Shown piece after piece: positions 4,883 to 20,089 of a stretch of DNA of 20,428 nt. Each line of letters starts with the position of its first letter. Position 1 is the stretch's first letter. The notes below the pieces were generated by a model that was given only the letters and a program-made list of their open reading frames with translations, made no database searches and was not told where the DNA came from. The DNA is from a virus: positions 1 through 20,428 of the IMG/VR virus record IMGVR_UViG_3300018424_000336. The stretch is one strand, 5' to 3'. The position numbers and the translations under genes were made by a program.

Positions 4883-5268
4883 CACGCAGCCGTGATCGTA
4901 ATGTCGCCGCTATTCACTCGCAGGATGTCGCCGTTTCCTACGACCTTTGAGGTCGTAAAGTCGCCGTAAATCAGAAGGTTCCCGCTCGAAGACGCGTCGA
5001 AGAGACCCCACGAGGTCACGGTCCCCCACGATCCGGTTGCGGTCGGGAATGTCACAGTTGCGTTGGAACTTGCGGACCCGCTACTTGCAGCCGCAAAAGT
5101 GATCGACTGGCGGGCATAACCAGAACCAGAAAGCTCGGTACCGGAATTGTCTTCATCAAAAGTTGCGGTGGAAAGGCCGAGATAGATTGTCGACGGCATT
5201 GCATACGCGCCCGTCGACAGCACGTGATCAAGGATTTCATTTTCGAGAAAGTTGCTCATTGCTGACAT
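4882..5268 (-). CDS. Conserved phage beta-rich structural protein (128 aa)
   Basis: Its ATG at 5268 is preceded by AAGGAG with 8-base spacing and lies 12 bases after the adaptor stop. A second ATG three codons later is possible. The body runs NFLENEILDHVLSTGAYAMP, then STIYLGLSTATF, GYARQSITFA, a Ser/Ala/Thr-rich strand region, and GTVTSWGLFDASSSGNLLIYG. This pattern is familiar from many siphovirus and podovirus genomes, where the protein is annotated as a tail or structural protein of unresolved function. No catalytic residues are evident. Place in the operon between adaptor and nozzle supports a virion component. Confidence 0.75.
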   Translation of the reverse strand: MSAMSNFLENEILDHVLSTGAYAMPSTIYLGLSTATFDEDNSGTELSGSGYARQSITFAAASSGSASSNATVTFPTATGSWGTVTSWGLFDASSSGNLLIYGDFTTSKVVGNGDILRVNSGDITITAA

Positions 5269-5280
5269 TGTCTGCGCTCC

Positions 5281-5901
5281 TTAAGAATAAACAGACCGCA
5301 TCTGAAGCGATCCGCCTGAGATTTGTTCGCGTTCTTCGACTTTTTGCATACCGGCCAGAGCGTTCTGATAGAGAGCCGCCCACATCTGCACGCGCTGGTC
5401 GTTCTGTAGAAACGTCTCAGCTTCCGCCATTGCCGCGTACAGATAGAGTTCGGGGTGGTAGAAAATAATGTCGTTAGTCGTTTGAGAGTCCGAAAGAGCC
5501 GGAACGCGCTCGTAATAGAGAATTTCCAAGGTGTAGGCGCTGTCCGGGCTTGGCCCTAAACGGAACTCATCACCAATAATGGTGAACACCTTCGGCTTTC
5601 CGACGCTCGATCCACCGTATATTCCGGCATAATGCGTCGGCGTTACATAAGTCAGGGGCGTCTTTGGAGACCCCTGCACGAACATGTCTTTAGCTTCGAG
5701 AAAATTTTCTGGAAGCAGCACCGTGTCGTCACTTGCCGTGGTAGCGGTGGTCGCACGTTTCAGCATGTGACGCGACCGAACGTCCTTGTTTATCCTGCTC
5801 TCAGCGAGCGTGATAAAGTCGGGGATGTACGTGGTCAGATCGTCTCTAGCGAGATAATTCGCTATCGAGGTCTTCAAGTCTGAAAATGTGCTGAGAGCCA
5901 T
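5281..5901 (-). CDS. Head-tail adaptor protein, SU10/P22 gp4-like (206 aa)
   Basis: The start at ATG 5901 overlaps the upstream stop by one base (TGATG) and has GGAAGG about 9 bases upstream. The protein opens TFSDLKTSIANYLARDDLTTYIPDFITLAESRIN, a helical pattern typical of podovirus adaptor proteins that bind under the portal. A beta section follows (KVFTIIGDEFRLGPSP, YTLEILYYERVPALSD), then helices (YHPELYLYAAMAEAETFL) and a flexible C terminus. In P22 and SU10-like virions this protein forms a twelve-subunit ring extending the portal and is followed by the nozzle, which matches the gene order here. The call is by pattern and context and is fairly confident. Confidence 0.8.
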   Translation of the reverse strand: MALSTFSDLKTSIANYLARDDLTTYIPDFITLAESRINKDVRSRHMLKRATTATTASDDTVLLPENFLEAKDMFVQGSPKTPLTYVTPTHYAGIYGGSSVGKPKVFTIIGDEFRLGPSPDSAYTLEILYYERVPALSDSQTTNDIIFYHPELYLYAAMAEAETFLQNDQRVQMWAALYQNALAGMQKVEEREQISGGSLQMRSVYS

Positions 5902-13995: not shown

Positions 13996-15269
13996 ACAAT
14001 CCCCCGATTATCGTAAGAAATCGCACGCGACCACTCGCCGCTGACATCTCGCAACCCAACCGCGAGATATCGCAACGCGTCAGCGCTATGCGATGTCCAA
14101 TCATGCAAGGGCCGTAGCTGGAACACCTTGCGTTTTTCATCAAATACCGTCCTGTATTGGCGGATCGCCTCAAGGAGGTGCTTACAGTCTTGGTCTATCC
14201 AGAGGCGCGGAAAGATACGTCGGACCGCGTTTATTCCGTCGTCCACACCCAACTGCGGCACAACAACCGGATCAATGCCCAAGCCCTGCAAGGACTCAAT
14301 CCGGGAACGCCCGCTGGATAGTTCTTTCACCCGCACATCGTGCGGAAAGTAATGCTCGCCAAGCTGCCAACCGTTTTCGTCGGCGCGGCGGCGAATTTCT
14401 CCGACATACCAATCAAGGCCCACCCCGGACCCTTCAAAGTGGTCGATGACGTGTATTTCCTGACCACACTGCTGGAACAGGATCACCGCCGTTGCGTCAC
14501 CGATGCCCAAGTCCCACGCCGTGTTTACAAGGGCGTGTGCATCGTGCGGCACATTGCAGACACGGCCTTCCGCCTCCGCCTGCTCAATCTCTCTCGCGTA
14601 GTACGCACCCTGCACAGCCGCTTGGAAGCTGCACTCATACTCCTGATTGTACGCATCGCTCGACATCATTGAGCGCGCTGCGTGGAGTTCAGACTCCGGC
14701 AAGATGCCGCTCTCGGACGCCTTCAGCGCCATCGAGAACCATTCGGGGTCCGTCGTGGCGTTGTCGTATATATCCCAGAACGTGTTCCGACCCTTCGGCG
14801 TGCCGATAAAAGTGGCACGACCATTCCTGTCCGACAGGCAGGCTCGTATGACCTCCGTCCAAGCGCGCGGGTCCATGTCCGCGAACTCATCCAACACAAT
14901 GGCATCCAAGCCGATGCCTCGAAGCCGGTCGTAATTATCAGCCCCGTAAAGCCTTAACCGCGCCCCGGTCGGGAAATCGACCCGAAGCTCGCTCTCGTTG
15001 TAAGTCACCCCCGGTATGGCGCGAGTGAAGTCCTTGGCGTACTGCCAAGCAATGTCACGCGCCTGCACCAGAAACGGCGCGATATAGGCGACACGCGGGT
15101 TCTCATGCTGACAGGTCAGCGCCGAACGTATCAGGTCGTTTATGCAGGCAACGGTCTTACCAGCGCGGCGATGCGCTACCAGACAGGCCCAACGGTGCTT
15201 TCGTTCGTGAAAGCCTACAAATTGTCGTCGGGGCTTGTATCCGATTCGGACTCGGACTGTGCCGCCCAT
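13992..15269 (-). CDS. terL: Terminase large subunit (425 aa), packaging ATPase and nuclease
   Basis: ATG 15269 overlaps the small terminase gene by 55 bases. The ATPase domain has a variant Walker A, HRRAGKT (33-39), and Walker B IVLDE with Asp127/Glu128, then the coupling motif IGTPKG (155-160). The nuclease domain has acidic candidates in AWDLGIGDAT (Asp253), FPHDVR (Asp311) and HSADALRYL (Asp397), an RNase H-like arrangement. It pumps DNA into the prohead and cuts unit lengths. At 425 residues it is compact, with little N-terminal extension. The assignment is very secure. Confidence 0.96.
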   Translation of the reverse strand: MGGTVRVRIGYKPRRQFVGFHERKHRWACLVAHRRAGKTVACINDLIRSALTCQHENPRVAYIAPFLVQARDIAWQYAKDFTRAIPGVTYNESELRVDFPTGARLRLYGADNYDRLRGIGLDAIVLDEFADMDPRAWTEVIRACLSDRNGRATFIGTPKGRNTFWDIYDNATTDPEWFSMALKASESGILPESELHAARSMMSSDAYNQEYECSFQAAVQGAYYAREIEQAEAEGRVCNVPHDAHALVNTAWDLGIGDATAVILFQQCGQEIHVIDHFEGSGVGLDWYVGEIRRRADENGWQLGEHYFPHDVRVKELSSGRSRIESLQGLGIDPVVVPQLGVDDGINAVRRIFPRLWIDQDCKHLLEAIRQYRTVFDEKRKVFQLRPLHDWTSHSADALRYLAVGLRDVSGEWSRAISYDNRGIV

Positions 15270-15490
15270 TCAATCACCATCTTCATAGGACCGCCGTCAT
15301 CGCCAGTCATTTCTACCGACGTCAGATCGGGCAGTGTTTTTTTCAGCAGGACCTCTGTTGCACGGATTTGCGTAGGCGTCATTTCGACCTCGCCAAGTGC
15401 ATGATTTTGCAGGCGATTTAACAACTGACTTGCTTGGATTTTTGCACGCGTTTCGTCGTCGTGCCTGATCTTGCGTATCCGTGCCGCCAT
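15215..15490 (-). CDS. terS: Terminase small subunit (91 aa)
   Basis: ATG 15490 follows the stop of the 58-aa ORF by one base (TGACATG), so it is probably coupled to it. The protein, ARIRKIRHDDETRAKIQASQ then NRLQNHALGEVEMTPTQIRAT and VLLKKTLPDLTSVE, matches small terminase-like proteins I have seen in many phages. The basic head may bind DNA. The acidic Ser/Asp C terminus probably contacts the large subunit. The family recognises packaging-start sites and feeds DNA to TerL. The gene directly precedes terL with a 55-base overlap. Confidence 0.85.
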   Translation of the reverse strand: MAARIRKIRHDDETRAKIQASQLLNRLQNHALGEVEMTPTQIRATEVLLKKTLPDLTSVEMTGDDGGPMKMVIEWAAQSESESDTSPDDNL

Positions 15491-15491
15491 G

Positions 15492-15668
15492 TCAGTGGAC
15501 TAAGCCACCCCCCTCACCGCCATCTATCTCTTCAATAAACCACTCAGAGAATTCAACCGCCTCTTCAGCGTCCTCAAAACCCTCGAACACCACAACGACA
15601 CGGCAATCGTCACCTTCCTCGTGGCGTTCGACAAAGACTGAAAAATACGTTGGAAAGGCATCATCCAT
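15492..15668 (-). CDS. Small acidic ORF heading the late operon (58 aa)
   Basis: This short frame starts at ATG 15668 and ends one base before the terS start. The product is acidic and well behaved: MDDAFPTYFSVFVERHEEG, then DDCRVVVVFEGFEDAEEA and SEWFIEEIDGGEGG, with two alternating strand-like stretches and an acidic tail. The ribosome site is only a modest GAGAAG. Close coupling to terS and clean amino-acid use suggest a real gene; I do not recognise a family. It is the first gene after the late-leader hairpin at 15685-15721. Confidence 0.6.
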   Translation of the reverse strand: MDDAFPTYFSVFVERHEEGDDCRVVVVFEGFEDAEEAVEFSEWFIEEIDGGEGGGLVH

Positions 15669-15684
15669 CACTTCTCACAAAACA

Positions 15685-15721
15685 GCCCCGCCAAGGGGAA
15701 AGGACAAAACCTTGACGGGGC
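15685..15721 (-). terminator. Hairpin in the late-operon leader (terminator / antitermination target)
   Basis: Arms at 15685-15696 and 15110-type spacing upstream, namely 15685-15696 paired with 15110+600 (15710-15721), form a 12-pair stem with one U-G pair in minus-strand RNA and a 13-nt loop. The sequence after it on that strand is CTGTTTTGTGAG, a short T-rich tract. It stands 17 bases before the first late gene, where lambdoid phages keep a terminator that a late antiterminator overrides. Confidence 0.55.
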
Positions 15722-15829
15722 CAGTTATCAACTAGGAGAAAACGGAGAAGAACATCGGACAAACCTCTCCACCCACGAAAATACGGGTTTTTTCGGTTCT
15801 GCACAACCCTATTCCACAAATAAAATTCG

Positions 15830-15854
15830 TTTTTTATCGTTTTTATACGGTTTT
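15830..15854 (+). promoter_or_regulatory. Phased T-tracts upstream of the plus-strand cassette promoter
   Basis: T-runs begin at about 15830, 15840 and 15851, 10-11 bases apart, immediately upstream of the -35 element at 15859. Tracts phased with the helix bend DNA and can act as an UP-like element. The whole gap from 15669 to 15912 (244 bases) holds this, the promoter and the late-leader hairpin; I see no further gene in it. Confidence 0.45.
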
Positions 15855-15858
15855 GATG

Positions 15859-15887
15859 TTGAAATAGGACCATTGGTCCCTTATATT
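15859..15887 (+). promoter_or_regulatory. Sigma70-type promoter with palindromic operator (small-gene cassette)
   Basis: TTGAAA at 15859-15864 and TATATT at 15882-15887 are separated by 17 bases. Inside the spacer, 15867-15879 is a perfect 13-base palindrome GGACCA-T-TGGTCC, a likely repressor site because binding there would block polymerase. The predicted start site near 15894 leads into AAAGGAG and the ATG at 15913. The palindrome differs from the repressor operators at 19287-20143, so another regulator is expected. Confidence 0.65.
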
Positions 15888-15912
15888 ATGCGTATTAACA
15901 AAGGAGAAAGAC

Positions 15913-16188
15913 ATGAACATCTTAGATCGCATCGAACGCCGCTTTACCGAAACCAAGAAGGCTTGCAAGCTCTACGCATCCACTGACGCCGCCGACAAGG
16001 CCGCGAAGCGCGAAATTGCCAAGCTGAACGAGGCGCACGACGCTGACATAGATTGCCCCTACATCGTTACGTTCGTCCCCAGCCAGCAGAAATACACGGT
16101 TGTCTTTGATTTCACTCGCTGGCTGCAACGATACAACAGCGGCACCTACCTCGGCTGGTTCGCTCAGCGCGGCTTTTTCAGCATCTGA
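15913..16188 (+). CDS. First gene of the inverted cassette (91 aa), function unknown
   Basis: ATG 15913 has a strong AAAGGAG six bases upstream and sits about 20 bases after the predicted transcription start. The protein has a basic helical first half (RIERRFTETKKACKLYA, DKAAKREIAKLNEAHDAD) and an aromatic beta-like second half (CPYIVTFVPSQQKYTVVFDF, then RWLQRYNSGTYLGWFAQRG). It could bind nucleic acid or another protein, but no known family is recognised. It is the leading and probably most expressed gene of a plus-strand operon set between two minus-strand operons. A very stable hairpin follows its stop. Confidence 0.7.
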   Translation: MNILDRIERRFTETKKACKLYASTDAADKAAKREIAKLNEAHDADIDCPYIVTFVPSQQKYTVVFDFTRWLQRYNSGTYLGWFAQRGFFSI

Positions 16189-16195
16189 TTACACC

Positions 16196-16215
16196 GCCGG
16201 GGCTTCGGCCCCGGC
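16196..16215 (+). other. Stable UUCG-loop hairpin between cassette genes
   Basis: GCCGGGGC-TTCG-GCCCCGGC is a perfect eight-pair GC stem with the extra-stable C(UUCG)G loop. No T-tract follows, so it is more likely an mRNA stabiliser, processing boundary or partial attenuator than a full terminator. It lies 8 bases after the first cassette gene and 21 bases before the next start. Confidence 0.65.
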
Positions 16216-16236
16216 ACCCAACACAGGAGAGAGACA

Positions 16237-16443
16237 ATGAAAATCGGAAAAACCAAAACGCACCACAAGCTTTACGTCACCGAGCGCGAGCTAGAGGTTC
16301 TTTGCGTTCTCTTTGGCGAGGGCAAGGAAGGTCTGATGATAGACGAGGGTAACATTTCGGACTTCGGCATCGACACCGCTGCGGCTGAGCGTGTGTATCA
16401 AGGGTTATGCAGTGCGCGGGCGCAGTCGCTTGGGGGAGATTGA
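16237..16443 (+). CDS. Second cassette gene (68 aa), function unknown
   Basis: ATG 16237 is preceded by AGGAGAG with good spacing. The protein starts basic (MKIGKTKTHHKLYVTERELEV), has a hydrophobic helix (LCVLFGEGKEGLM) and an Asp/Ala-rich end (SDFGIDTAAAERVYQGLCSARAQ). The pattern YVTERELEVLCVLF recalls a helix that packs on a DNA-binding fold, but no complete HTH is evident. It belongs to the same transcript as the 91-aa gene. Function cannot be assigned. Confidence 0.65.
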   Translation: MKIGKTKTHHKLYVTERELEVLCVLFGEGKEGLMIDEGNISDFGIDTAAAERVYQGLCSARAQSLGGD

Positions 16444-16451
16444 AACCCTAA

Positions 16452-16506
16452 AATGAAACGTTATCGGCAGATACCGTTTCATTCAAAACCCACTATGAAA
16501 CCGTAT
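16452..16506 (+). repeat. Three copies of ATGAAAC(N2)TAT, two forming a long hairpin
   Basis: ATGAAACGTTAT at 16453-16464, the inverted copy (read on the minus strand as ATGAAACGGTAT) at 16471-16482 and ATGAAACCGTAT at 16495-16506. The first two pair: AATGAAACG with CGTTTCATT plus inner TATC/GATA around GGCA, at 16452-16483. The cluster fills the gap between cassette genes, so it may be a protein-binding array, an RNA structure or a two-way terminator. Confidence 0.55.
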
Positions 16507-16524
16507 TGCCTAGAGGAAACAGCC

Positions 16525-16581
16525 ATGACCCCCCAAGACGTTATTCACCTGATCGTTAAAATCATCGATTTCTTGATTTGA
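16525..16581 (+). CDS. Possible 18-aa peptide coupled to the next gene
   Basis: ATG 16525 has GAGG about 9 bases upstream and encodes MTPQDVIHLIVKIIDFLI, an amphipathic hydrophobic peptide. Its stop overlaps the TTG start of the following gene by three to four bases (TTGA). It may be a leader peptide that delivers ribosomes to that non-AUG start, a small membrane-active peptide, or chance. Too short to judge by composition. Confidence 0.35.
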   Translation: MTPQDVIHLIVKIIDFLI

Positions 16582-16739
16582 ACACTACGGAAACACCCAC
16601 CCTTGCCTTCTTCCGGCACTCACCTGACGATCCGCGTCAGTGTGAGTTGGTGGTGGTTTACAACGGCGCGCAGGTGATTGTTCCGGTCGAGCGCCAAGTC
16701 GTCCTTTCACACATTCAAGAGCTTCTGAAATTTCTATGA
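16578..16739 (+). CDS. Small cassette protein with TTG start (53 aa)
   Basis: No ATG is available in this frame (an in-frame stop lies at 16557), so initiation would be at TTG 16578, which overlaps the stop of the 18-aa peptide. The product reads TETPTLAFFRHSPDDPRQCE, then LVVVYNGAQVIVPVERQVVL and SHIQELLKFL: a compact strand-strand-helix pattern with sensible composition. The stop overlaps the next start as ATGA. Coupling on both sides supports a real gene. Function is unknown. Confidence 0.55.
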   Translation: MNTTETPTLAFFRHSPDDPRQCELVVVYNGAQVIVPVERQVVLSHIQELLKFL

Positions 16740-16987
16740 CCCCCGACGATCTCAAGATATTTATGCTGGCGCACGATCTTAGGCAAAAAGACGCTGCCGA
16801 AGCGTTGGGTGTCAGCCCTCGTCACCTTCGCCGAATGCTATGCGGGGAGAGGACCATCACAAAAACAATCCAAAGATTGGTTTACGCCCTTAACGATCTA
16901 GCCCTTGGTAATCAGCAAGCCGGTCAAGGTTATACCGGAGATCGCGGATCGTCCCCCTCCACTCATCATGAACCACCACTGAAATGA
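16736..16987 (+). CDS. Helix-turn-helix regulator at the end of the cassette (83 aa)
   Basis: ATG 16736 overlaps the previous stop as ATGA. Residues 4-50 form a typical XRE-like HTH: LKIFMLAHDLRQKDAAEALG, then VSPRHLRRMLCGERTIT, with the recognition helix around SPRHLRRML. The last 25 residues are unstructured and overlap, on the opposite strand, the 3' end of the early operon by 98 bases. It is the obvious candidate to bind the palindrome in the cassette promoter or the ATGAAAC repeats and so control its own operon. Its DNA targets are inferred only from proximity. Confidence 0.75.
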   Translation: MTPDDLKIFMLAHDLRQKDAAEALGVSPRHLRRMLCGERTITKTIQRLVYALNDLALGNQQAGQGYTGDRGSSPSTHHEPPLK

Positions 16988-17267
16988 CCATAGAGGGGGC
17001 TACAAGCGCCCTGACGTTCTGAAGGTAGGCTTCCCAAAGCCCCTCTTGAGTATCGCCCTCTGAGCCGCCCCTATGGCGTTTTGTGAGGTCGTGAGCGCGG
17101 GGCTGGGGCAGAAGCGTCGCACGCTCATGCAAATCCCGCAGATACGTGGCGGCATCATACTGTCGGTCATCGATTTCCTCGAAGCGATGTAGCCGGTCGA
17201 TCAGCCGCTGGGTCTTGTTGACGTTATGAACCGTGACCGATCCCTTGGGGTCGGACTCACGGACCAT
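16890..17267 (-). CDS. Last early gene, in the position of a late regulator (125 aa), function unknown
   Basis: I place the start at ATG 17267, 14 bases after the preceding stop. The frame extends up to 17378, but there it runs through the previous gene and reads like an out-of-frame shadow. The protein is helical: NVNKTQRLIDRLHRFEEID, DRQYDAATYLRDLHERATLL, an Arg/His-rich linker, then WEAYLQNVRALVAPSMVISVVV and IRDLRYNLDRLADYQGL. This outline recalls alphaproteobacterial DUF6456-type proteins, at low confidence. As the last gene of the early operon, facing the late operon leader, it occupies the place of lambda Q. The end overlaps a convergent gene by 98 bases. Confidence 0.6.
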   Translation of the reverse strand: MVRESDPKGSVTVHNVNKTQRLIDRLHRFEEIDDRQYDAATYLRDLHERATLLPQPRAHDLTKRHRGGSEGDTQEGLWEAYLQNVRALVAPSMVISVVVHDEWRGTIRDLRYNLDRLADYQGLDR

Positions 17268-17280
17268 ATCACCGTCATCT

Positions 17281-17877
17281 CTACCCTCGTTCAGCCTGAC
17301 GCGTCCAATGACGACGCTCTTTTTCAAGTTCGGCTTCGATGCGCTTTCTTCGCTCATAGCGCGGCTCCAGATGCTCAATAAACTCGGATAAGGATGGGAA
17401 AAACTTGTGCGTGCGCTGGAGCGACCTGATCGCCGTCATTACGAGGTCTGCCGGGTACTCGCCCAAAGCGCGGGCCACCTCTCGCATCCGCCCCTCAGTG
17501 TCGGACGCCTTCGAAGCCATTGTCAGGTGCATCTGCATAAGCCCAGCGACAATCATCTCCGGCGGCGCTGGCATCAATGATCGGGCCACTAGCTCCGCAG
17601 CCTTCTCCAAATTCGCCTTCTTCGAAATCTGAAGGCCCTGAACCTCGACCCTCATCGGGTTGTATTTGACTGAGGGAATTAGCTGCACGCCTTGCTTTTG
17701 CAGCGAGGCTGTCAGCGTCTTGTCGGCTTCGGCTGGATACATTTTCGCTAACTTTGCGTTCGTCCCGCCAACCGGCTCCGCGAAGCCACGTTGTTGCATG
17801 TTTGATAAATCGCTCCGGCTGGGCCTCGGCCTCGCACCATCGGGCATAATTGGCAGCGCCTCGGATAATGTTTTCAT
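17281..17877 (-). CDS. Replication-associated protein, helicase-loader position (up to 198 aa)
   Basis: The longest form starts at ATG 17877 with AGAGG six bases upstream, but the first 383 bases lie inside the replication initiator gene in another frame. Internal ATGs at 17847, 17799 and 17742 are alternatives with weaker ribosome sites. The most protein-like part is the C-terminal two thirds: ANLEKAAELVARSLMPAPP, MIVAGLMQMHLTM, then EYPADLVMTAIRSLQRTHKFF and PSLSEFIEHLEPRY, a pattern seen in replication-associated phage proteins of alphaproteobacteria. The location directly after an O-like gene matches lambda P, so a helicase-loader role is plausible but unproven. Confidence 0.6.
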   Translation of the reverse strand: MKTLSEALPIMPDGARPRPSRSDLSNMQQRGFAEPVGGTNAKLAKMYPAEADKTLTASLQKQGVQLIPSVKYNPMRVEVQGLQISKKANLEKAAELVARSLMPAPPEMIVAGLMQMHLTMASKASDTEGRMREVARALGEYPADLVMTAIRSLQRTHKFFPSLSEFIEHLEPRYERRKRIEAELEKERRHWTRQAERG

Positions 17878-18343
17878 AACTGTCCTCTTTCAAAGCCTTC
17901 TCAAACGCTCGGCGAGCGTCTTTCTTTCCAATATGTCGTGGATAGACCGACCAGAACTGATCGAACTGCGCGTCCGTGTCTGACCTAACAACTGGTGGTG
18001 AGGTTACTGGTGGTAAATGCTGTGACTCTCTGTCACCCTTACAAAGTGACTGTGTGTCACTCTGTGGCGGTTCAAGGTGCCGCTCTGTCACCTTGTATAC
18101 GTTTGCACCGCGTTTCCCGTCTCTTCGCCGGGTTTCTTCCGTTTCCAAAAGACCAAGCTGCACCAACGCGTCGACGTGACGGATGATTGAGCGCCGCGAT
18201 AAACCCGTCTTTTTCTCAAGCGTAGAATGTTTGACTTTCCATTGCCCGTCGTGATCGACGTAGTCGGCAAGCGCCAAAAACACGAGCTTGGTGAGGGGCG
18301 GCAGATCGCAAGAAAATGCGAAGTTAAGCGCGGCGATGCTCAT
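17495..18343 (-). CDS. O-like phage replication initiator with winged HTH (282 aa)
   Basis: ATG 18343 overlaps the previous stop as ATGA; earlier in-frame codons lie inside the GcrA-like gene. Residues 1-90 form a winged HTH (PPLTKLVFLALADYVDHDG, then STLEKKTGLSRRSIIRHVDAL and a Lys/Arg wing). A Pro/Ser linker (91-125) follows. Residues 127-192 carry the familiar replication-protein pattern FDQFWSVYPRHIGKKDARRAF and RFIKHATTWLRGAGW. The linker DNA contains three iterons (18022-18091). The last 85 or so residues are Gly/Ser/Arg-rich and overlap the next gene out of frame. The role is origin recognition and recruitment of replication factors. Confidence 0.8.
   Translation of the reverse strand: MSIAALNFAFSCDLPPLTKLVFLALADYVDHDGQWKVKHSTLEKKTGLSRRSIIRHVDALVQLGLLETEETRRRDGKRGANVYKVTERHLEPPQSDTQSLCKGDRESQHLPPVTSPPVVRSDTDAQFDQFWSVYPRHIGKKDARRAFEKALKEDSYENIIRGAANYARWCEAEAQPERFIKHATTWLRGAGWRDERKVSENVSSRSRQDADSLAAKARRAANSLSQIQPDEGRGSGPSDFEEGEFGEGCGASGPIIDASAAGDDCRWAYADAPDNGFEGVRH
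18022..18091. repeat. Three iterons inside the initiator gene (probable replication origin)
   Basis: GTGACTCTCTGTCAC (18022-18036), GTGACTGTGTGTCAC (18046-18060) and GTGCCGCTCTGTCAC (18077-18091) share a GTGAC-N5-GTCAC dyad. They fall in the stretch encoding the linker between the initiator's DNA-binding and C-terminal domains, as lambda origin iterons do inside O. Two ACTGGTGGT direct repeats lie beside them at 17991-17999 and 18006-18014. Confidence 0.65.
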
Positions 18344-18747
18344 GTGATCTCCCTCAAGCCCCGGTTCACCCGGTCGCTGTCCATCAGGCGTTCTGCGTTG
18401 TGCTTGCTGCAAAGACCGTGCAGATAGCCCGGCAGGCGATTGTTCAAGCACCCCGGCGCTGCGCAAATAGAGCCAAAGGTCTCGTAGCGCTTTTCTTGAG
18501 CCAGACGCTCTGCCGCAGCAGCCGCTGCCTTCTGTTCGGCAGTTTTTTTCGCGGATGCCTCGGCGTCCTCTCGCTCTTCTTCCTTGGCCTTTTCACGTAA
18601 ATTCTGACGGAAAATTCGACCGATGACGGCGTTGCGCTCGCGATCAAAATATTCCGCCATCTGCCTGCAAGACCAACCAGCCTTGATGAAATCGACTAGC
18701 TTCTCATCGTCCTCTGGTGACCACGTATGCGCGGGTGCCTTAAACAT
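18340..18747 (-). CDS. GcrA-like transcription regulator with Cys/His tail (135 aa)
   Basis: ATG 18747 overlaps the RusA gene end by 8 bases. Residues 8-50 match the GcrA/Myb-like HTH: HTWSPEDDEKLVDFIKAG, SCRQMAEYF, then RNAVIGRIFRQ; the RNAVIG piece is diagnostic. Residues 51-90 form a charged, Ala/Glu/Lys-rich helix. The end carries C95-x4-C100 and C113-x2-H116, a possible zinc site. Cellular GcrA of alphaproteobacteria works with sigma70 at methylated GANTC promoters. A phage copy may steer host polymerase or read host methylation. The Cys/His tail is unlike the cellular proteins I know. Confidence 0.75.
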   Translation of the reverse strand: MFKAPAHTWSPEDDEKLVDFIKAGWSCRQMAEYFDRERNAVIGRIFRQNLREKAKEEEREDAEASAKKTAEQKAAAAAAERLAQEKRYETFGSICAAPGCLNNRLPGYLHGLCSKHNAERLMDSDRVNRGLREIT

Positions 18748-19084
18748 GGAGCAACGGCAAGATCGTGGTTTGAACCAGACCCTTTTCTCCACCCCAATAA
18801 ACGTTAAGGCGATGCACTTGGCTGTCGTCTTCGAAGACCCCTACCCGCTCAAGCAAGTCCAAGCAGGGCTTCACGATGTTATCCAAGTCACGGCGGCGCT
18901 TGTCAGGTCTGCCGACCGCCATTTCGACCGAAACCGGGCCATCAAAGCTCTGAAGGTTAAAAGCCAAAAGGCGAGCCTCGCCCGCCTCCAGCCAATCGTT
19001 GTAAGCCTTCGTCTTGAACGCCCTGCCACGGCCATAGCGCCAAAGTCGGTTAACGCTCGGCGGGTAAAGGAGATCAATCGTCAT
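18740..19084 (-). CDS. rusA: RusA-family Holliday junction resolvase (114 aa)
   Basis: ATG 19084 overlaps the end of cro by 11 bases. The N terminus has PPSVNRLWRYGRGRAFKTKAY, a pattern seen in the family, and the core RRDLDNIVKPCLDLLERVGVF-type segment with Asp66, Asp68 and Asp86/Asp87 as acidic metal-binding candidates. The length (about 120 aa) fits. RusA dimers cut four-way DNA junctions, aiding recombination and clearing branched DNA before packaging. Its place in the early operon next to replication genes is typical of lambdoid phages. Confidence 0.9.
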   Translation of the reverse strand: MTIDLLYPPSVNRLWRYGRGRAFKTKAYNDWLEAGEARLLAFNLQSFDGPVSVEMAVGRPDKRRRDLDNIVKPCLDLLERVGVFEDDSQVHRLNVYWGGEKGLVQTTILPLLHV

Positions 19085-19277
19085 CACCAAGCCCCACAAG
19101 GTCGAGTATGTCGACGTCGATGTCGTGCCGACGGCAGATTTCAAGGACTGCCTTGGCGCGGCGCACCGGCACCCGGTTTTTTCTCTGCCAGTAGGCGACC
19201 GCCTGCTGCTTGACTCCAGCGGCGTCCGCGAGTTTTTTCTGAGAGCCAACAGCTCTTACAATGTCATCCAATGTCAT
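19074..19277 (-). CDS. cro: Cro-like repressor, YdaS/Cro-type HTH (67 aa)
   Basis: ATG 19277 is the start: the frame extends upstream to 19460 but only through the promoter and operators. Residues 11-35 form the HTH (GSQKKLADAAGVKQQAVAYW), followed by NRVPVRRAKAVLEICRRH and an acidic tail. The gene is divergent from the repressor at 19472 and begins the early operon. Its promoter puts the start site at or beside the ATG, so the message is probably leaderless, with no room for a ribosome site. The role is likely to bind the 19-bp operators and favour lytic growth. Confidence 0.85.
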   Translation of the reverse strand: MTLDDIVRAVGSQKKLADAAGVKQQAVAYWQRKNRVPVRRAKAVLEICRRHDIDVDILDLVGLGDDD

Positions 19278-19283
19278 ATTGCG

Positions 19284-19313
19284 GTTATACAAAATATATT
19301 TGTATTCTGTCAA
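19284..19313 (-). promoter_or_regulatory. cro / early promoter with operator 1
   Basis: Reading the minus strand, TTGACA (19313-19308) and TATAAC (19289-19284) are 18 bases apart. Operator 1, ATACAAA-N5-TTTGTAT at 19287-19305, lies between them with perfect 7+7 symmetry, so a bound repressor would block transcription. Six bases after the -10 comes the cro ATG. Confidence 0.8.
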
Positions 19314-19326
19314 TAACCAAAGATGC

Positions 19327-19353
19327 TTGCTTAACAAAATTTTTTTGTATAAC
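19327..19353 (+). promoter_or_regulatory. Repressor promoter overlapped by operator 2
   Basis: TATAAC at 19348-19353 is an acceptable -10; the only -35-like sequence, TTGCTT (19327-19332), stands 15 bases away, so the promoter is weak. Operator 2, TAACAAA-N5-TTTGTAT at 19332-19350, covers the -10. Its left half is imperfect, which suggests weaker binding than operator 1 and autoregulation of the repressor. Confidence 0.6.
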
Positions 19354-19388
19354 GTTCTTTTTCTTAGTGTTTTGAGAGATAAAAAATC

Positions 19389-19475
19389 ATGACAACAAAA
19401 GACAGGCGTTACAGGATAGCGCGCATCAAAAATCACAGGATTGCGCGAGAGAAAAGCCAAGGAGAGTCAGGATGA
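19389..19475 (+). CDS. Possible 28-aa upstream ORF coupled to the repressor gene
   Basis: ATG 19389 opens a 28-codon frame whose stop overlaps the repressor start as ATGA. The peptide is very basic, with RIAR occurring twice (RRYRIARIKNHRIAREK). The ribosome site is weak (GAGAG). The coding repeat comes from two near copies of ACAGGAT-W-GCGCG at 19411-19423 and 19435-19447, 24 bases apart, so the DNA repeat rather than the peptide may be what matters. Confidence 0.35.
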   Translation: MTTKDRRYRIARIKNHRIAREKSQGESG

Positions 19476-20089
19476 AAATTGCTGATCGAATAAAAAATGC
19501 GCGCGGAGAAAAGGGGCTTTCCCAGAAAAAATTGGCTGAACAGCTGAATGTTCGCCAAGCCACTGTCTCTGCATGGGAGAAAGGCGTCGCGATACCTCGC
19601 GAGGCGGTTTTCCATCAATTAGCCGAGGTGCTCGGTAAGAGCGTAGAATATTTACGTTTCGGCGGAGAACAGATCAGTAACCTTAAAAGGATCGAGGTTC
19701 TTGGAGACGTGCGAGCCGGAGCATGGAGGAACGCGTTGGAATTTGAGGAAGAAGACAAAGAAATCTTGAGTGTGCCTGCGCCGCCGAGGGCATTTAGTTT
19801 AATTGCGCGCGGCGAAAGTATGAACGAGCGCTACCCCGATGGCACATATCTGATCTGCCTACCGATTATAGAATTTGACGAAATCAAAGATGGCGCTGGG
19901 GTAATCGTGCATCGCTCGAACGCCGAGGGGCTTTGGGAAGCCACCGTAAAAGAATACCGATTAAAAGACGGAAAGGCTTATTTGTGGCCGAGATCAGACC
20001 ACCCAGACCACCAAAACCCGCTACTTTATGAAAACGGCGAATCGGTCGAAATCACGGCAATTGTCGTGGGGACGTATCGACCCGAATAA
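19472..20089 (+). CDS. cI: CI/LexA-type autocleaving repressor (205 aa)
   Basis: ATG 19472 has AAGGAG seven bases upstream. Residues 4-60 form an XRE HTH (ADRIKNARGEKGLSQKKLAE, then NVRQATVSAWEKGVAIPRE). The C-terminal S24 peptidase domain has the Ala82-Gly83 cleavage site (VRAGAW), Ser116 in RGESMNERYPDG and Lys160 in ATVKEY, so self-cleavage should be intact. In temperate phages RecA filaments trigger this cleavage after DNA damage, releasing the lytic promoters. The gene lies between operators 1/2 and 3/4, divergent from cro, as in lambda. It supports a temperate lifestyle and SOS induction. Confidence 0.93.
   Translation: MKIADRIKNARGEKGLSQKKLAEQLNVRQATVSAWEKGVAIPREAVFHQLAEVLGKSVEYLRFGGEQISNLKRIEVLGDVRAGAWRNALEFEEEDKEILSVPAPPRAFSLIARGESMNERYPDGTYLICLPIIEFDEIKDGAGVIVHRSNAEGLWEATVKEYRLKDGKAYLWPRSDHPDHQNPLLYENGESVEITAIVVGTYRPE

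Follow-up and report, generated by a model that had tools for sequence, protein, structure and literature searches.

The closest described systems are the acr-aca operons (Aca1, Aca2, Aca3), in which short genes on one strand share one constitutive promoter whose core holds an inverted repeat, a short HTH gene stands at or near the end, the cargo is variable and the distribution among phages is accessory. In each Aca family examined to date, the protein represses a core promoter that contains one inverted repeat (PMC9410906), and acr loci reportedly cluster with orphan DNA methyltransferase-type genes (PMC7648647). The short-gene-operon rule of AcaFinder covers genes of <200 aa on one strand with gaps of <250 bp (PMC9765179). 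The phage cassette analysed here is described by that rule apart from a known Acr homologue. It resembles the acr-aca operons in all of the above respects of architecture and distribution, and differs from them in that no homologue of a known Acr was found in it, its HTH protein (E83) is itself only remotely Aca-like, and its operator has a sequence of its own.

Setting of the cassette and its closest relative

The window, meaning the whole 20,428-nucleotide stretch of DNA analysed, is part of a temperate tailed phage (20.4 kb), taken from a virus record. Its leftward genes begin with a cI/cro-like pair (19074-20089); replication genes follow, and then terS, terL, portal and later structural genes. 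Five short ORFs of 18-91 aa are reversed between the last early gene (16890-17378) and the terS-side genes (15215-15671). They form a plus-strand cassette of ~1.1 kb in which every intergenic gap is <100 bp, flanked on both sides by minus-strand genes, the terS-side genes and the early/replication operon (16890-18466). The initial annotation had described a five-gene inverted cassette with a TTGAAA-17-TATATT promoter, a 13-bp palindrome, T-tracts, a UUCG hairpin and ATGAAAC repeats, and each of these was located at or near the place it had given (Table 1).

The closest relative found, IMGVR_UViG_3300017739_000527 (one contig with the handles L016, L019 and L085), has a terL 90% identical to that of the window, and carries a cassette in the same place and orientation. 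There, the promoter is followed by an unrelated 76-aa gene, a D53 homologue and an E83 homologue, the single unrelated gene standing in for the 91-, 68- and 18-aa genes. This gene order points to a conserved core, consisting of promoter/operator, D53 and E83, and an exchangeable front cargo. The proposal that the insert is autonomously controlled, by an operator and a regulator of its own, agrees with this picture, since L016 retains promoter, palindrome, D53 and HTH gene as a group in the same place, and the unit is absent from nearly all more distant terminase relatives. The same comparison spoke against the idea that the cassette comes and goes as one unit: the five genes are not present or absent together, A91, B68 and C18 being exchangeable and A91 also occurring behind other promoters.

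Between its cassette and its early operon, L016 carries an orphan DNA methyltransferase gene (5122-5664; phrog_799, E 6.7e-29), which is absent from the window and overlaps the HTH gene on the opposite strand, an arrangement similar to that of E83 and the early gene in the window. The overlap in the window is tail to tail, spans 98 bp (16890-16987), and sets the conserved C-terminus of the early gene against the unconserved tail of E83. A terminator-like hairpin precedes the terS-side operon in both phages (at about 4326-4355 in L016), which suggests that the late genes need antitermination or a promoter of their own.

A DNA-level search of the phage collection with the cassette region gave no matches. 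Terminase relatives with 38-55% identity were present in 12/385 Alphaproteobacteria genomes sampled, making that class the likely host group; no cassette was found within 1.5 kb upstream of these terminases, and no cultured carrier was found.

Table 1 Features of the cassette and its left boundary (positions in the window; L016 is the closest relative)
Feature	Position	Strand	Basis or remark
Terminator-like hairpin at the boundary between the cassette and the opposite-strand terS-side operon	15684-15722	-	Fold -25 kcal/mol; in L016, stem and T7 run at the same place
Three T-tracts, possible UP element	15830-15835, 15840-15844, 15851-15854	+	Sequence; spacing 10-11 bp
Promoter TTGAAA (15859), 17 bp, TATATT (15882-15887)	15859-15887	+	Best sigma-70 match in region
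Spacer-filling palindrome GGACCATTGGTCC, the proposed operator for E83, the terminal HTH protein	15867-15879	.	Perfect 13 bp
Short leader with ATTAACAAAGGAG Shine-Dalgarno	15888-15912	+	Common to many other phage promoters
A91 (91 aa), the first cargo gene; belongs to a mobile phage family	15913-16188	+	phrog_3633-like
Hairpin GCCGGGGC-UUCG-GCCCCGGC directly after A91	16196-16215	+	-21 kcal/mol, z = -3.5
B68, cargo gene, 68 aa	16237-16443	+	ORF
Array of three ATGAAACSGTAT copies (ATGAAAC array)	16453-16507	.	Copies at +16453, -16470, +16495
C18, 18-aa hydrophobic peptide or leader	16525-16581	+	Sequence; stop overlaps D53 start
D53, conserved core gene, 53 aa, TTG start	16578-16739	+	Homologue in L016
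E83, short XRE/HTH_3 protein, 83 aa, proposed self-repressor	16736-16987	+	Last 98 bp antisense to next operon

Promoter, core genes and cargo

Matches to sigma-70 promoters were near chance in the cassette region (2 found vs 1.7 expected), so conservation has to carry the promoter argument. L016 keeps in register a TTTACA-like -35, GGACCATTGG(A)CC, TATATT and GTATTAACAAAGGAGA; it also retains the leader segment TATTAACAAAGGAGA with position and orientation unchanged, and is A/T-rich at the position of the T-tracts. A perfect palindrome with 6-bp arms is expected in a random 17-bp spacer with a probability of about 0.0026. GGACCATTGGTCC is unique within the window, with no second site even when 3 mismatches are allowed. 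A palindrome occupies the same spacer position in L016 (as L019) and in two further viral contigs, L020 and L022, with one mismatched pair in L019, the one direct homologue, and likewise in L020. The position of GGACCATTGGTCC between -35 and -10 is that of the core-promoter inverted repeat of acr-aca operons. Its presumed ligand, E83, is likely the repressor of this site. E83 and the HTH proteins of L020 and L022, all paired with GGACC-type palindromes, have recognition helices that are unlike one another.

The start of E83 overlaps the stop of D53 (ATGA). E83 matched HTH_3 with E 8.1e-5 over 38/55 positions, within the limits applied to Aca HTH proteins (<150 aa, encoded in the operon, HTH HMM E<1e-3, >40% coverage). 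The initial annotation, which called the terminal gene a likely regulator, had stated that no product is recognised; this holds for the function of the cargo, A91 matching only an uncharacterised family, while E83 is recognised as HTH_3. The structure model of E83 has a pLDDT of 83.5, rising to about 96 over residues 1-50, and a low-confidence tail. A PDB fold search with this model returned Aca2 as the best match, with C.Kpn2I and HigA close behind, at weak E-values (0.006) of the size that small HTH proteins usually give. Phages often carry short XRE genes.

When a profile built from nine cassette HTH proteins was compared with the PDB, Aca1 supplied the three best matches (E 1.3e-7), and both Aca3 and Aca2 matched at E-values below 0.004; a two-sequence profile of E83 and one close homologue gave no Aca match. 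The cI protein of the phage itself returned no Aca proteins in a single-sequence PDB search, which indicates that an Aca match is not given by every phage HTH, as far as a single sequence can serve as a partial control for a profile. Controller (C) proteins of restriction-modification systems share the small XRE fold with E83, as the match to C.Kpn2I illustrates. They differ in setting, as the cassette contains no restriction enzyme and its operator lies inside the core promoter, a location that implies repression rather than activation.

The D53 homologue of L016 is 64% identical, with its ATG start aligned to the TTG of D53, and the E83 homologue is 58% identical; no relatives of D53 or E83 were found among sequenced phages. 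Substitution patterns indicate purifying selection on A91, D53 and E83 (pS 0.45-0.90 vs pN 0.12-0.28; for D53, pN 0.23 vs pS 0.88).

A91 matched the profile of phrog_3633, an uncharacterised family, with E 2.5e-10 over profile positions 126-217 of 219, and is also a member by predicted fold; no solved-structure relative was found in the PDB by sequence or fold. Fourteen relatives with 68-79% identity occur in viral contigs that hold no other protein of the window. They are often the first gene behind a different promoter, and the promoters in L006 and L011 carry long perfect palindromes. The family (Delftia phage PhiW-14, Achromobacter and Serratia phages) likewise resides in small-gene regions; unlike its other members, A91 stands behind a spacer-palindrome promoter in a temperate phage. 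A hairpin immediately follows the A91 stop codon in 8/8 relatives checked, and is retained in L006 with both loop and stem letters changed. Hairpins of the same type occur elsewhere in L003 and L006, so this may be a general 3' element and not one made for A91.

No relatives were found for B68, including among sequenced phages, or for C18, of which no counterpart was seen in L016. C18 could start further upstream, as its frame stays open back to 16453, giving a 42-aa ORF. Searches of the cargo proteins tested against NCBIfam and Pfam, and against the PDB for A91, gave no match at all, and thus none to a known anti-CRISPR or anti-defence family. As no known acr homologue was found, the cassette is not filed as acr-aca.

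None of 300 shuffles reached three copies of ATGAAACSGTAT, and the array, which could be either a binding-site array or a transcript hairpin, is missing from L016. Binding of the HTH protein at 16452-16506, suggested earlier, found no support, the repeats being unlike the core-promoter palindrome as well as absent from L016. The array was also considered as a cI/cro operator and rejected; the cI/cro region has ATACAAAatataTTTGTAT instead, an inverted repeat between cro and cI (19287-19305) that is the likely operator of the lysogeny switch.

Proposed function and alternatives

With a probability of roughly 0.6, the cassette is an accessory, self-repressing short-gene operon built like acr-aca, whose exchangeable cargo most probably counters host defences. 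An anti-defence function of the cargo, the weakest step of this reading, is probable; it is favoured by the architecture, by the exchangeable nature of the cargo and the mobility of A91, and by the orphan methyltransferase beside the cassette in L016. When the phage DNA enters the cell, or when repressor is scarce, the bare promoter would fire strongly and A91 would be made at once. As E83 builds up, it would bind GGACCATTGGTCC between -35 and -10 and exclude RNA polymerase, so that an early burst of expression would give way to a low level. Leftward transcription of the early operon at later times, antisense through the cassette, would damp expression further. Among the roles named in the initial annotation (lysogeny, defence or late control), anti-defence fits best; control of lysogeny is less likely, since cI and cro genes with another candidate operator exist outside the cassette, and late control is without support.

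A toxin-antitoxin module is an unlikely alternative. D53 (or C18) would then be the toxin, E83 a HigA-like antitoxin and promoter repressor, and A91 and B68 passengers, the module stabilising the lysogen or acting in abortive defence. In HigBA systems, too, the second or last gene encodes a short XRE protein, autorepression is presumed and there is a start/stop overlap; HigA antitoxins are among the leading fold matches of E83, which has weak HigA profile matches as well (E 0.005). D53 and E83 are a conserved pair joined by the ATGA overlap, and C18 is short and hydrophobic. Unlike HigBA, the cassette has several variable genes and no HigB-like toxin: no RelE/HigB-fold toxin lies beside E83, and D53 matches no toxin family or any other. 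The HTH partner gene also varies between cassettes, a different gene preceding it in L020 and in L022, so that there is no constant toxin partner, and E83 has no toxin-binding extension beyond its low-confidence tail.

It is similarly doubtful that the cassette serves lysogenic conversion, in which expression from the prophage independently of cI would keep out superinfecting phages or change the host, E83 fixing the steady level. The cI/cro-like genes, the cassette's own promoter and its orientation against lytic transcription would suit such a role, as would its accessory distribution. Yet no membrane or exclusion protein was recognised among the products, and relatives of A91 also occur among the early small genes of Achromobacter and Serratia phages.

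A regulatory switch, in which E83 as a late regulator, or cassette transcription by antisense interference with the replication genes, controls the early or late operons, is improbable. The antisense overlap between E83 and the last gene of the early operon, with no clear terminator seen downstream of E83, and the terminator-like hairpin between cassette and late operon are arrangements such a switch could use; however, the only copy of the palindrome in the window is in the cassette's own promoter, and the absence of the cassette from most terminase relatives argues that it is not essential for late control. That these are chance ORFs behind a decorative promoter is very improbable, for although short ORFs are common and promoter-like matches near chance, purifying selection refutes this for A91, D53 and E83 (B68 and C18 fall outside that refutation), and promoter and leader are conserved in L016.

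Recurrence in other environmental phages

Viral contigs were scanned for the palindrome followed by TATATT, revealing two further real cases with the same palindrome. In L020, whose terminase is 54% identical, a 50-aa gene is followed by a 64-aa HTH gene, the two lying immediately upstream of terL on the opposite strand; L022 has 123-aa and 100-aa genes followed by the HTH gene. A third contig, L021, showed the palindrome pattern with the leader absent and was judged a chance match. Two matches to the palindrome-promoter pattern in bacterial genomes, without leader or Shine-Dalgarno context, also look like chance. L017 and L084 contain only generic HTH relatives, in other settings.

A second scan of the viral contigs, for the leader motif TATATT-N6-ATYAACAA-N-GGAG, returned 60 contigs. 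Of these, contigs with a palindrome in the spacer tended to carry a short HTH gene further downstream (L062, L066, L068, L072 and L080). These five, and L089 from the terL relatives, repeat in their sequences the plan of palindrome, orphan small genes and HTH gene, with other palindromes. Across 51 non-redundant leader-motif sites, spacer palindromes were stronger where a short HTH gene lies downstream (p = 4e-4; strict HTH set, p = 1.6e-4; without the GGACC family, p = 0.002), p-values to be read as indicative, because the HMM was seeded with part of these loci and the threshold was set once the data had been seen. In L089, TCCCATttATGGGA lies in the spacer and is followed by two 86-aa genes and a 61-aa HTH gene, backwards and immediately upstream of a terminase with 57% identity. 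Of the 60 terL relatives that have 1.5 kb or more of upstream sequence, L016 and L089 alone have a backwards HTH cassette, which makes the cassette an occasional guest at this spot.

More tentatively, these loci may belong to a new, widespread Aca-like operon class in environmental phages, with diversified spacer palindromes and HTH proteins and undiscovered anti-defence cargo, in which A91 and its 3' hairpin would be a broadly traded module. If the anti-defence reading of the cassette is right, the combination of a spacer palindrome, a ATCAACAA-GGAG leader and a terminal short HTH gene would provide a search handle that pulls orphan small genes, as candidate immunity inhibitors, from unannotated environmental phages, with A91 as a concrete first candidate to test.

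Two further promoter arrangements were observed. Another palindrome, GGACAnnnnnTGTCC, lies just upstream of the -35 ahead of the same leader in L025, L030 and L081 (with variants in L034, L053 and L075), and represents another operator class. A recurring promoter type in aquatic phage contigs (L042, L044, L052, L055, L063, L070, L074 and L076) has a G run before TTTACA and a ACTATCAACAA-like leader, sometimes in two copies per contig.
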